A DNA stretch of 22,491 nt from a virus, in the IMG/VR virus record IMGVR_UViG_3300024433_000064, positions 1-22,491 of that record. The stretch is one strand, 5' to 3'. A model generated the notes under the pieces. That model saw only the letters and a program-made list of their open reading frames with translations, was not told the origin of the DNA and made no database searches. Positions 12,583 through 15,294 of this stretch are shown here, piece after piece. Positions within the stretch are counted from its first letter, which is position 1; each line of letters starts with the position of its first letter. A program made the translations under genes and the position numbers.

Positions 12583-12791
12583 TGAGCAGACAACCTAAAA
12601 CAACAGGTGAACATATTATAGATCTTCAAGGACACATTAAAGGTGTAAAAAGAGAAGTGTATCATCTTAAAACGACTCAGGAACACATGCATAGAGATAT
12701 AGAAAAAGTTGGAAATAAAGTAGACAAATTTCTTTATATTTTGCTCGGAGCACTGATTGCGGCAGTAATTGCTGTAAAAATTCCTTTCTGA
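12582..12791 (+). CDS. Small coiled-coil membrane protein, holin/XhlA-like layout
   Basis: A 69-aa protein with a polar helical N-terminal half rich in His, Lys and Glu (HIKGVKREVYHLKTTQEH, MHRDIEKVGNKVDK) and one C-terminal hydrophobic segment (FLYILLGALIAAVIAVKIPF, about 50-69). This N-in coiled coil plus single C-terminal membrane helix resembles XhlA-type lysis accessory proteins and some holins. Lysis genes often sit at the end of virion operons, and this is the last gene before the hsp20 unit. No endolysin is seen next to it. It could equally be a membrane-anchored virion factor. Start overlaps the previous stop (TAATG). Confidence 0.65.
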   Translation: MSRQPKTTGEHIIDLQGHIKGVKREVYHLKTTQEHMHRDIEKVGNKVDKFLYILLGALIAAVIAVKIPF

Positions 12792-12816
12792 GAGCCTCAA
12801 TTTTTAACGAAACGAC

Positions 12817-12848
12817 CTTGACATGACCTGTGGTACCCCCTATATATT
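12817..12848 (+). promoter_or_regulatory. Promoter of hsp20, matching sigma70 and heat-shock sigma (RpoH) consensus
   Basis: The 112-bp gap before hsp20 contains CTTGACA (12817-12823), then CCCCCTATATATT (12836-12848). For sigma70 this reads TTGACA, 17-nt spacer, TATATA (or 19 nt, TATATT). For heat-shock sigma it reads CTTGACA, 12-nt spacer, CCCCCTAT, against the E. coli consensus CTTGAAA/CCCCATnT. It also reads CTTG, 18 nt, CCTATAT, against the CTTG-N17-18-CYTATnT pattern reported for alphaproteobacterial heat-shock genes. Predicted start near 12853 gives a leader of about 50 nt with a 5-bp hairpin (12858-12870). Confidence 0.75.
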
Positions 12849-12903
12849 ACGCAGGTGCAGCATTTTGCTGGCCTATTAAACTTGCTTAACAAAGGAGTAT
12901 AAT

Positions 12904-13326
12904 ATGACAGGTTTAGACATTATAAATAAATTCAACAAAGATTTCTGGAATCATACAGATGATGTATTTAATTCATCTTTCAGAACAATCTTTGATAACT
13001 TAGCAAAAGCTCAATCCTTTCCATTTTACAATGTGGTAAAATACGGAAACAGTGAATACGGAATCGAGTTAGGACTAGCAGGATTCAATAAGAAGAATGT
13101 TAAAGTTCAATACAAAGGTGGCGTATTAACAGTATCTGGTGAAGTGGACGATAAAGAAAAAGAATACGTTCAAAAAGGACTAGCAGCTAGAAAATTCTTT
13201 AAGCAATTTGCATTGCATGAAGATGTAGTTGTTAACGAAGCTGAAATGGAAGATGGTGTATTAACAGTGAAATTCGGTGTTAAAGAACCAAAAGACATTG
13301 AAGGCGTAGATATTAATATTAAATAA
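12904..13326 (+). CDS. hsp20: Hsp20 small heat-shock protein (alpha-crystallin domain)
   Basis: A 140-aa ATP-independent holdase chaperone of the IbpA/Hsp20 family. The alpha-crystallin domain spans about 39-129, with YGIELGLAGFNKKNVKV (52-68), GVLTVSGE (73-80), GLAARKFFKQFALHEDV (92-108) and the family hallmark A-x4-GVLTV (A113, G118-V119-L120). The C-terminal I-N-I (137-139) matches the I-x-I oligomerisation motif. The N-terminal arm is aromatic-rich (FWNH, FRTIF), as expected for substrate binding. It has its own promoter, Shine-Dalgarno AAAGGAG (12891-12897) and a following terminator-like hairpin, so it is an independent unit between virion and replication genes. Phage Hsp20 proteins occur in marine T4-like phages; here it may protect newly made virion or replication proteins. 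Confidence 0.93.
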   Translation: MTGLDIINKFNKDFWNHTDDVFNSSFRTIFDNLAKAQSFPFYNVVKYGNSEYGIELGLAGFNKKNVKVQYKGGVLTVSGEVDDKEKEYVQKGLAARKFFKQFALHEDVVVNEAEMEDGVLTVKFGVKEPKDIEGVDINIK

Positions 13327-13332
13327 TGACAT

Positions 13333-13405
13333 TTGGTGATGACCCCTTTGGGCACAATAAAAATCTCAGAGGGGTTAGACCAATAGAGTTTATTATTATT
13401 TTTTT
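13333..13405 (+). terminator. Terminator-like hairpin between convergent genes
   Basis: Inner stem of 9 bp (13342-13350 ACCCCTTTG with 13367-13375, one G-U pair) around a 16-nt loop, extended by an outer 5-bp stem (13333-13337 TTGGT with 13379-13383 ACCAA). A T-rich run (TTTTTTT at 13399-13405) follows about 15 nt later, further than in a classical intrinsic terminator. It separates hsp20 from the convergent helicase gene and is the best visible end for hsp20 transcription; the helicase side has no matching U-tract. Confidence 0.55.
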
Positions 13406-13429
13406 ACTTATCTGGTATTTACTTGGACA

Positions 13430-14863
13430 CTAGATCCAATCTTTTAATTCTTCACCCATAATCTCAGTAGCAATATTAACTTTATTACGAAGTGCTTTAA
13501 CAATCTTTTCATCTATAGTATCTTCAGCAATAATATCAACATAAGTCATAGGTTTTTCTTGACCAATACGATCTATTCGTGCTTCAGATTGTTGACGTTT
13601 TTCTAAATCATATCCATTAGAATAATAAATCATGGTAGACGCTGCCGTTAAAGTGATACCATAACCACCTGTTTGTGGCGTTCCCACTAAGAATCGTGTG
13701 GGTCCTTCTTTGTTTTGTATAGCTTTAATCGCTTTTTGACGGTCTTCTGTAGAAGTATCGCCATAATAAGTAACGATAGAATTTTCACCATATGTTTTTT
13801 TTACCTCCTCTAAAATAATTTCAATATCGTATCGATAGTGAGCCCAGATAATAGCTTTTCCCTCCACTTCATCTAAAATATCCATAAGTTCCGAAAGTCT
13901 TTTTGATTTTATTTTTTGTACATCACCGTCGTCAGATTTAAAATGACCGCAAGTGATTTGGTGAAGTCTCATAAGTTGAGTAATTACAGTTGCAGTAGAA
14001 ACCATTTTACCATTAAGAACAGCTAGAGCTTTTTCTTTCATGTTTTTGTACAATTTTTTTTGTTCATCGGACAACTCAATAATACGTTTCATAAAAGTTT
14101 TCTTTGGTAAATCTAAACAATCATCTTTTAAAACTCGATATGAAAATAATTTTAATTTTTCGGATAATTCACCTAAATTTCTGTAACCAACTACAATTTC
14201 AATTTGTCTTCCATGAGCCATTATTTTTTTACAAATTGCATAACGATTTTTAAATGCATAATAGGATTGTTGATCTAATAACCATGGATCTAAAAACATA
14301 CATTGCATGAATAAATCTAACGGAGATTTTGTTACAGGGGATCCTGTTAAAATTCTTTTATAAGGAACATGTTTACCTAGGTCCACAATGGTTTTAGTTC
14401 TAATGGCTCCAGGATTTTTTATGGTAGTCGATTCATCAATGGCCATCATTGATTTGTGGCAATTCAAAAATTTCCATGCAAACTGTTTTCCATTTTTTGT
14501 AGAAAACGCTTCAACATTCATAATTAAAATGTGTAAATCATCGTCAGATTCAAATAAAGTCTTGTATTCATTATCTTTTTTCTTACCACCCGATGCTTCC
14601 CACATCACGACTTTTTTCTCAATATGTTCAGGCATATGGACCGGAATTTCAGAAGAAAACCAGTTTTTATATACACCTTTTGGTGCTATAATTAGCGCCC
14701 CATTTATTTTACCTTTATCATAAAGCATGGCGATATTATCAATAAGGACTTTAGATTTACCTGTTCCCATTTCCATGAAATAGGCAAATACTTTTTTATC
14801 CCAAGACATTTCCAATGCTTTGAGTTGATGCTCGAACGGCTTAGTTTTAAATTTGTAATGCAT
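13430..14863 (-). CDS. SNF2-type superfamily 2 helicase/ATPase
   Basis: A 477-aa SF2 helicase of the SNF2/Rad54 type, and the only minus-strand gene. Motifs in order: Q-like PFEHQLKAL (9-17), Walker A MGTGKS (32-37), Ia IIAPKGVYKNW (58-68), Walker B DEST (143-146), III LTGSPV (172-177), IV KAIIWAHYR (336-344), V GYGITLTAAST (400-410) and VI QSEARIDRIGQ (425-435). Motif VI with R-x-x-R-x-G-Q is diagnostic of SNF2-like ATPases. Small phage SNF2 helicases lack the chromatin-binding domains of eukaryotic members and are taken to act in phage replication or recombination. It converges with hsp20 and diverges from the replication genes. The ATG at 14863 is only about 8 nt from the predicted transcription start, so it may be translated almost leaderless. 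Confidence 0.93.
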   Translation of the reverse strand: MHYKFKTKPFEHQLKALEMSWDKKVFAYFMEMGTGKSKVLIDNIAMLYDKGKINGALIIAPKGVYKNWFSSEIPVHMPEHIEKKVVMWEASGGKKKDNEYKTLFESDDDLHILIMNVEAFSTKNGKQFAWKFLNCHKSMMAIDESTTIKNPGAIRTKTIVDLGKHVPYKRILTGSPVTKSPLDLFMQCMFLDPWLLDQQSYYAFKNRYAICKKIMAHGRQIEIVVGYRNLGELSEKLKLFSYRVLKDDCLDLPKKTFMKRIIELSDEQKKLYKNMKEKALAVLNGKMVSTATVITQLMRLHQITCGHFKSDDGDVQKIKSKRLSELMDILDEVEGKAIIWAHYRYDIEIILEEVKKTYGENSIVTYYGDTSTEDRQKAIKAIQNKEGPTRFLVGTPQTGGYGITLTAASTMIYYSNGYDLEKRQQSEARIDRIGQEKPMTYVDIIAEDTIDEKIVKALRNKVNIATEIMGEELKDWI

Positions 14864-14907: not shown

Positions 14908-15269
14908 ATAGAAATATGAAAAATAAAGTTTATGTCATCCAGGACATTCCTGGTACCAGAGAAGGTCGTCCCAAAATAAACATTATTGGAGCAACTGAAT
15001 TTGGTGATCTAAAAGTTTTACTACCTGAGAATGCACAAATAATTTTAAGTGCAGGTCCATTAGTTTTTAAATTAAGAAAAGCATTAAAAGAATACACGGA
15101 AAACGATTATCTTTTACTCACAGGTGATCCTGCAATTATTGGAGTTGCATGTTCTATTGTATCTGATATGACTAATGGGAAATATAAATTATTAAAATGG
15201 GACAAACAAGAAAGAAGGTATTATCCGATTGAAATTGATTTATATCAAAAAATTTCTGACGAGACTTGA
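14901..15269 (+). CDS. Conserved-type marine phage protein of unknown function, 122 aa
   Basis: A 122-aa protein with the pattern VYVIQDIPGTREGRPKINIIGA near the start, then GDLKVLLPENAQIILSAGP and YLLLTGDPAIIGVACSIVSD. These phrases recur in marine phage replication modules, where the family has no assigned role. LLTGDPAIIGVACSIVS could be a nucleotide- or metal-binding loop but no known motif fits. Start choice is uncertain: ATG 14901 lies within the -35 box of the divergent promoter; ATG 14916 (MKNKVYVIQ) is an alternative. No clear Shine-Dalgarno precedes either. It ends inside the -35 box of the following promoter. Confidence 0.7.
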   Translation: MSNRNMKNKVYVIQDIPGTREGRPKINIIGATEFGDLKVLLPENAQIILSAGPLVFKLRKALKEYTENDYLLLTGDPAIIGVACSIVSDMTNGKYKLLKWDKQERRYYPIEIDLYQKISDET

Positions 15270-15294
15270 CAAACTTATTTTAAGGGATTATATT
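15266..15294 (+). promoter_or_regulatory. Strong sigma70-type promoter of the replication module
   Basis: TTGACA (15266-15271) overlaps the TGA of the preceding gene and is followed after exactly 17 nt by TATATT (15289-15294; one mismatch to TATAAT). The predicted start near 15301 lies about 17 nt before the next ATG at 15318, leaving room for the Shine-Dalgarno-like GAAAGG. From here the + strand runs without an obvious terminator to the window end, so this is the likely main promoter for the replication genes. Confidence 0.78.

Follow-up and report, generated by a model that had tools for sequence, protein, structure and literature searches.

A sigma70/RpoH-like hybrid promoter and a ROSE-like leader RNA before the hsp20 gene of a putative SAR11 phage

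Could the chaperone gene of a phage be wired into the stress response of its host? This question is raised by a 22,491-nucleotide stretch of viral DNA (IMG/VR record IMGVR_UViG_3300024433_000064; hereafter the window), in which a sequence-only reading had placed a heat-shock-type promoter before an hsp20 gene. The identity of the gene is borne out: the ORF at 12904-13326 (+ strand) encodes a 140-aa small heat-shock protein matching Pfam PF00011 (HSP20; E 3e-14). The DNA polymerase and large structural protein of the window are closest to those of 023Pt_psg01, HTVC027P and HTVC023P (47-67% identity), and the latter two are cultured phages of SAR11 HTCC1062 from a group called HTVC023P-type (PMC9599517). 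We infer that SAR11 is the host of the window phage. None of the three isolates (HTVC023P, HTVC027P and 023Pt_psg01) carries hsp20 at the corresponding place, and we therefore read conservation from metagenomic relatives.

The gap between hsp20 and a 69-aa ORF ending at 12791 contains the sequence CTTGAC-N16-CCTATAT (12817-12845), 58 nt upstream of hsp20. The bases described earlier are exactly in place: CTTGACA (12817-12823) and CCCCCTAT (12836-12843) are separated by 12 nt, CTTG (12817-12820) and CCTATAT (12839-12845) by 18 nt, and the same bases can be read as a sigma70 promoter, TTGACA (12818-12823)-N17-TATATA (12841-12846), in agreement with a sigma70 hexamer test (TTGACA-N17-TATAAT-like). 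Taken box by box, the -35 element CTTGAC (12817-12822, + strand) is sigma70-like and one base off the RpoH1 consensus CTTGAA, and the C element with the -10 box (CCCCCTATATA, 12836-12846, + strand) is RpoH-like. Compared with the RpoH1 promoters of the rhizobium Sinorhizobium meliloti (consensus CTTGAA-N15-16-CCTATAT; PMC4843759), the window site shares 12 of 13 bases and the spacing, but differs in the last base of the -35 box (CTTGAC versus CTTGAA). Two other strong promoter matches in the window (14907-14878, - strand; 15266-15294, + strand) lack the C run, as the earlier reading had stated.

Several smaller features surround this promoter. A weak terminator-like hairpin (TGAG-AGC-CTCA, then A and five T; 12789-12805) separates the hsp20 promoter from the operon upstream of it, and its counterpart in L005 reads CTGAG-AGC-CTCAG-TTTTT. 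Directly 5' of the -35 element lies an ACGAAA-type block (12807-12816, + strand) that is conserved in the same promoter class; in the window (12807-12823) and its relatives of class A, defined below, an ACGAAA-N2-ACC block adjoins the -35 box. In some relatives an inverted repeat spans the -35 box (GACCTTGACGTAAGGTC in L003, GGGTTGACATAACCC in L001), and the block or the repeat is a possible regulator site. Downstream, a 35-aa putative membrane peptide (MTFGDDPFGHNKNLRGVRPIEFIIIFLLIWYLLGH; 13326-13433) overlaps the hsp20 stop by one base; it is also encoded in L003, L005 and L070, and was not seen in most relatives checked.

We scored the window site with a two-box matrix of SAR11 heat-shock promoters. 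It reaches 8.9, or 6.9 with the hsp20 sites held out, well below the host promoter medians of 14.6-19.8. Sites of this score are expected by chance 0.02-0.05 times per gap of equal length, and both the window site and the phage hsp20 upstream regions outscore AT-rich intergenic background, a comparison that the sequence-only reading had put forward as a check. Judged by its boxes, the window promoter is a good sigma70 promoter and is fully explicable as such; its use by RpoH is plausible.

To place the promoter among its relatives, we aligned the upstream DNA of 80 IMG/VR loci encoding a close Hsp20 (61-96% identity). The alignment resolves two promoter classes. The window belongs to class A, in which the promoter has CTTGACA and a run of C before TATAT; here the spacer between the boxes differs among loci in sequence and by 1-2 bases in length, and the C run is retained. 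Free variation of the C element, which would have counted against the earlier proposal, is not what these relatives show: a run of at least four C is found in 24 of the 26 loci that share the ACGAAA block. It is missing altogether from about half of the relatives, where CTTGAA or CTTGTA and TATAAT-like -10 boxes stand instead (class B). Class A combines a sigma70-like -35 with an RpoH-like -10, and class B an RpoH-like -35 (CTTGAA or CTTGTA in 21/26) with a sigma70-like -10, whereas the other strong promoters of the same phages, in which CTTGACA is common, are sigma70-like in both boxes. The 5 nt before the -10 box are 95% C in class A versus 8% in those other strong promoters. We infer that the phage hsp20 promoters may be hybrids, reached by two routes, that could be used by both sigma factors.

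As a group test, we built a matrix from SAR11 groES and dnaK promoters only. Its median score is 8.5 in 47 distinct phage hsp20 upstream regions, versus 0.7 in 186 regions upstream of other genes in these phages and -0.3 in 208 SAR11 non-heat-shock upstream regions. The hsp20-versus-other difference (MWU p 3.5e-20) remains when regions of like sigma70 strength are compared (p at most 2e-6); the loci are related, and we take these p-values, which overstate independence, only as support for the size of the effect. In Mosig, a cultured pelagiphage, the hsp20 promoter reaches 17.0, which is host level.

The presumed host group encodes rpoH. Our SAR11 genome set was gathered by means of a 16S probe and has record titles naming Pelagibacteraceae, Pelagibacterales and Candidatus Pelagibacter; rpoH is above cut-off in 15 of 19 partial SAR11 genomes. 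The regions upstream of SAR11 groES, dnaK and hsp20 contain CTTGAAA or CTTGTAG, 15-17 nt, and C(C/T)(T/A)ATATGA or CCATATA, and one SAR11 hsp20 promoter (L311), CCCCCATATATAA, is near the phage element. No ClpB gene, sought as an additional heat-shock gene, was above cut-off in the SAR11 genomes. SAR11 and phage promoters have in common the CTTG...C(C)(T/A)ATAT layout, but the phage promoters mix sigma70- and RpoH-like halves.

We also looked for the window promoter elsewhere. Its exact form has no match among the genomes of an 84,980-species collection, and the pattern CTTGACN{9,12}GTACCCCCTATAT occurs in viral contigs, 21 in all, and is absent from cellular genomes; we therefore rejected the idea that the promoter was copied whole from a known host. 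We likewise rejected a general phage promoter: outside this phage group, the exact promoter is present only in L088 and L096, unrelated phage contigs where CTTGACA-N-GTACCCCCTATATT stands on the - strand directly before ORFs that by eye resemble phosphoesterase and nuclease genes. In L085 (564-734) and L097 (1311-1481), of the same phage group, the class A promoter is retained at the same place and hsp20 is replaced. We rejected a phasin-like gene here: the ORF behind the promoter encodes 35 aa (MFPTYAQVKEFWTSYAANVQKFWTDFYKDVSNKQD), could be assigned to no family, and is preceded by a different hairpin leader.

The proposal that the chaperone is wired into the host stress response through its promoter holds in part. 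The rpoH gene of SAR11, the shared promoter layout and the matrix fit of the phage hsp20 upstream regions speak for it; the sigma70 CTTGACA of the window, the relatives without a C element and the failure to find the exact promoter in any genome of the collection qualify it. The stronger link to the host heat-shock system, which the proposal overlooked, is the leader of the mRNA, situated between the promoter and hsp20.

This leader (12854-12906, + strand) scores 67.5 bits with R1, a covariance model that we built from phage leaders only, and it ends at the hsp20 ATG. Hairpin I (12854-12873, + strand) consists of GGU, a bulged G, CAGCA-UUU-UGCUG and GCC, and shows compensatory changes. Within hairpin II lies a UUGCU box (12882-12886, + strand), a ROSE-type anti-Shine-Dalgarno sequence by predicted fold and conservation; the Shine-Dalgarno sequence AAGGAG (12892-12897, + strand) is predicted to pair with CUUGCUU, leaving a G bulged. 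The leader is conserved across promoter classes A and B. Among 46 distinct phage leaders, the two-hairpin structure shows 45 both-side changes, where shuffles give 16.3 and slid controls never exceed 19, and the Shine-Dalgarno pairs of hairpin II are kept in nearly all of the leaders. Of 47 phage hsp20 genes, 46 are preceded by a UYGCU box with GGA after it, as are none of 186 other genes of the same phages. The same box is found before all 16 SAR11 hsp20 genes, versus 0/208 other SAR11 genes and 0/33 groES or dnaK genes.

R1 itself recognizes the host leader. It matches 16/16 SAR11 hsp20 leaders and none of the groES (0/19) or dnaK (0/14) loci. In a search of 20 whole SAR11 genomes at E<=0.001, the hsp20 leader is the sole match, in 8 of the 20; among 190 alphaproteobacterial genomes, searched with strict filters under which weak matches are lost, two were matched, both at hsp20 leaders. 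The SAR11 leaders follow the same two-hairpin plan, and their hairpin I covaries as well. The core AAACTTGCTTAACAAAGGAG...ATGAC is almost identical in phage and SAR11, and a hairpin I with a bulged G is common to both, but the stem of the phage hairpin I differs. The SAR11 Hsp20 proteins are 34-38% identical to phage Hsp20.

These features recall the ROSE family of RNA thermometers, in which U(U/C)GCU pairs with the Shine-Dalgarno sequence (PMC11182007). Short ROSE-like thermometers have been proven by experiment for Pseudomonas ibpA, with two hairpins of which the second pairs the Shine-Dalgarno sequence with U(U/C)GCU (PMC3669281). The window RNA is likewise the 5' leader of a small heat-shock gene, ends at its ATG, carries the Shine-Dalgarno sequence in a 3'-proximal hairpin predicted to pair it with U(U/C)GCU around a bulged G, and has a further upstream hairpin with compensatory changes. 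Both it and the Pseudomonas ibpA leader are about 50-60 nt long with two hairpins and compensatory changes in the first; the window leader differs in being phage-borne and known from sequence, in the sequence of hairpin I, and in lying below the Rfam ROSE cut-offs (PMC3669281). For the window leader, the Rfam ROSE families RF00435 and RF02523 gave no match even with E allowed to reach 5. The family that best fits a SAR11 hsp20 leader is ROSE_3 (22.1 bits; E 0.006, search space 111 nt); it is also the best one for the leader before hsp20 in L370, a 1.6-Mb genome of the same class (E 0.016), and in the methylophage Melnitz (34.1 bits, E 6e-4), each match below the gathering score of 43. Since the window leader has no Rfam match and the others fall under the gathering score, we call the window leader ROSE-like and do not assign it to an Rfam ROSE family. 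In two phage records marked "UNVERIFIED" (L374, OQ572409, Pseudomonas phage Y7; L375, MG065691, Campylobacter phage A11a), we saw an apparent bacterial ibpA with a ROSE leader; this DNA is probably host contamination.

ROSE-like leaders also precede hsp20 in other phages. R1 gives a match that ends where hsp20 begins in Mosig, Melnitz, HTVC103P, HTVC008M and HTVC115P; in AG-345-P14, which is unannotated, the match lies at what appears to be the start of hsp20 (E 9e-6 to 0.05 over all six). Inspected by eye and with a box pattern, 9 of 11 hsp20 genes of T4-like cyanophages have, ahead of the annotated start, the plan GGATGCC-loop-GGGTCC ... CTCGCTT ... GGAG or something close to it; S-T4, the tenth, has this plan before an in-frame upstream ATG, and in the S-TIM61 leader it is absent. 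P-HM2 lacks a ROSE-like leader. The leader of cyanophage SynMITS9220M01 looks ROSE-like by eye and is not matched by R1. We excluded cyanophage leaders from the covariation count, their alignment (A3) being too ragged in hairpin II. The hsp20 leaders of T4-like cyanophages (L376-L385 and L373) resemble short ROSE elements, with a TGCC-loop-GGG hairpin and CTCGCTT...GGAG, and several of them begin just after a TATAAATA late promoter.

Phage thermometers described in the open-licence literature that we searched are those of lambda cIII, SPbeta blyA (fourU) and a sigma70 gene of gut Caudoviricetes (fourU) (PMC11182007, PMC10586365). They too are thermometer-type leaders in phage genomes, but they are not described as ROSE type and none stands before a chaperone gene. 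The Melnitz paper mentions hsp20 and a glutamine riboswitch, and no thermometer. In the open-licence literature we found no report of a thermometer on cyanophage or pelagiphage hsp20, an absence that falls short of proof.

Folding calculations for the window copy as a thermometer are equivocal. Folded only to the ATG, the Shine-Dalgarno sequence is predicted to be unpaired with a probability of 0.11 at 10 C and 0.23 at 40 C. With at least 12 coding bases added (ViennaRNA), it is predicted to be about 80% unpaired at every temperature, and in this fold AAACUUG (12878-12884) pairs with CAGGUUU at codons 2-5 of hsp20. This alternative fold would free the Shine-Dalgarno sequence, and is also possible in SAR11 (ACUUG/CAAGU). 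Co-transcriptional folding would form the leader hairpins before pairing with the coding start, though doubt remains, and nearest-neighbour models lack the non-canonical pairs of ROSE. Taken singly, phage leaders have unremarkable folding energies (shuffle z-scores of -0.3 to -0.8), which are not significant and which we rejected as support.

How else might the promoter be explained? Resemblance by chance within an AT-rich gap would fit the frequency of promoter-like sites in the window (80, versus 79.2 in shuffles) and the rank of the site by RpoH score, fifth among 44,962 positions or 21st with hsp20 held out; conservation in relatives already disfavours it, as do the hsp20 specificity and the strong group statistics, and we regard it as highly improbable. 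A better candidate, possible although we doubt it, is an ordinary sigma70 phage promoter whose C run is a spacer or activator feature of the lineage, with RpoH uninvolved and only the ROSE-like leader tying the gene to temperature. CTTGACA-N17-TATATA is near the sigma70 consensus, CTTGACA recurs in other strong promoters of these phages, the same promoter stands before the 35-aa ORF in L085 and L097 and before unrelated genes in L088 and L096, and its exact form is not in cellular genomes. Yet the C run sets class A apart from those other strong promoters and fits host heat-shock promoters, and relatives without it have an RpoH-like -35 instead.

The leader, for its part, might be kept for translation efficiency or mRNA stability and not for temperature, its likeness to the host reflecting ancient descent of an hsp20 cassette together with its leader. 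Hairpin I could shield the 5' end, as has been suggested for Pseudomonas ibpA (PMC3669281), the folding energies do not point to an abrupt opening with temperature, and in the window the leader may pair with the beginning of the coding region. Against this, the UUGCU/Shine-Dalgarno core is specific to hsp20 and nearly fixed across phages and host despite 34-38% protein identity, and the layout is that of the experimentally proven short ROSE thermometers (PMC3669281). We consider this explanation unlikely, slightly more so than a promoter that serves sigma70 alone.

The reading that we favour, and hold to be reasonably likely, is that hsp20 is a stand-alone unit under host-like two-level control by a sigma70/RpoH hybrid promoter and a ROSE-like thermometer leader. 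Through this promoter, infected cells would transcribe hsp20 even when unstressed, and at a higher rate once RpoH rises and binds. In hairpin II of the mRNA, weak pairing with the UUGCU box would mask the Shine-Dalgarno sequence until warming opens the helix. The phage would then presumably benefit from Hsp20 under unfolded-protein stress or at warm temperature. With somewhat less confidence, we lean toward a wider view: unrelated marine phages (HTVC023P-type podoviruses, pelagimyophages, a methylophage and T4-like cyanophages) would have hsp20 governed by a ROSE-like RNA thermometer, and the SAR11 phages among them would add an RpoH-responsive hybrid promoter, such that chaperone output would track stress in the host and the temperature of the water.

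T4-like cyanophages count hsp20 among their core genes, yet the role of this gene is only guessed at, capsid scaffolding being one suggestion (PMC3037559); a thermometer leader and a heat-shock promoter would lead to testable statements on when hsp20 is needed. If our reading is true, a ROSE-type thermometer would exist in phages, where few thermometers, of other types, have been described (PMC11182007). The mRNA of some of the most abundant viruses of the ocean would then read temperature directly, and the capacity of infected cells for protein folding would be coupled to warming.
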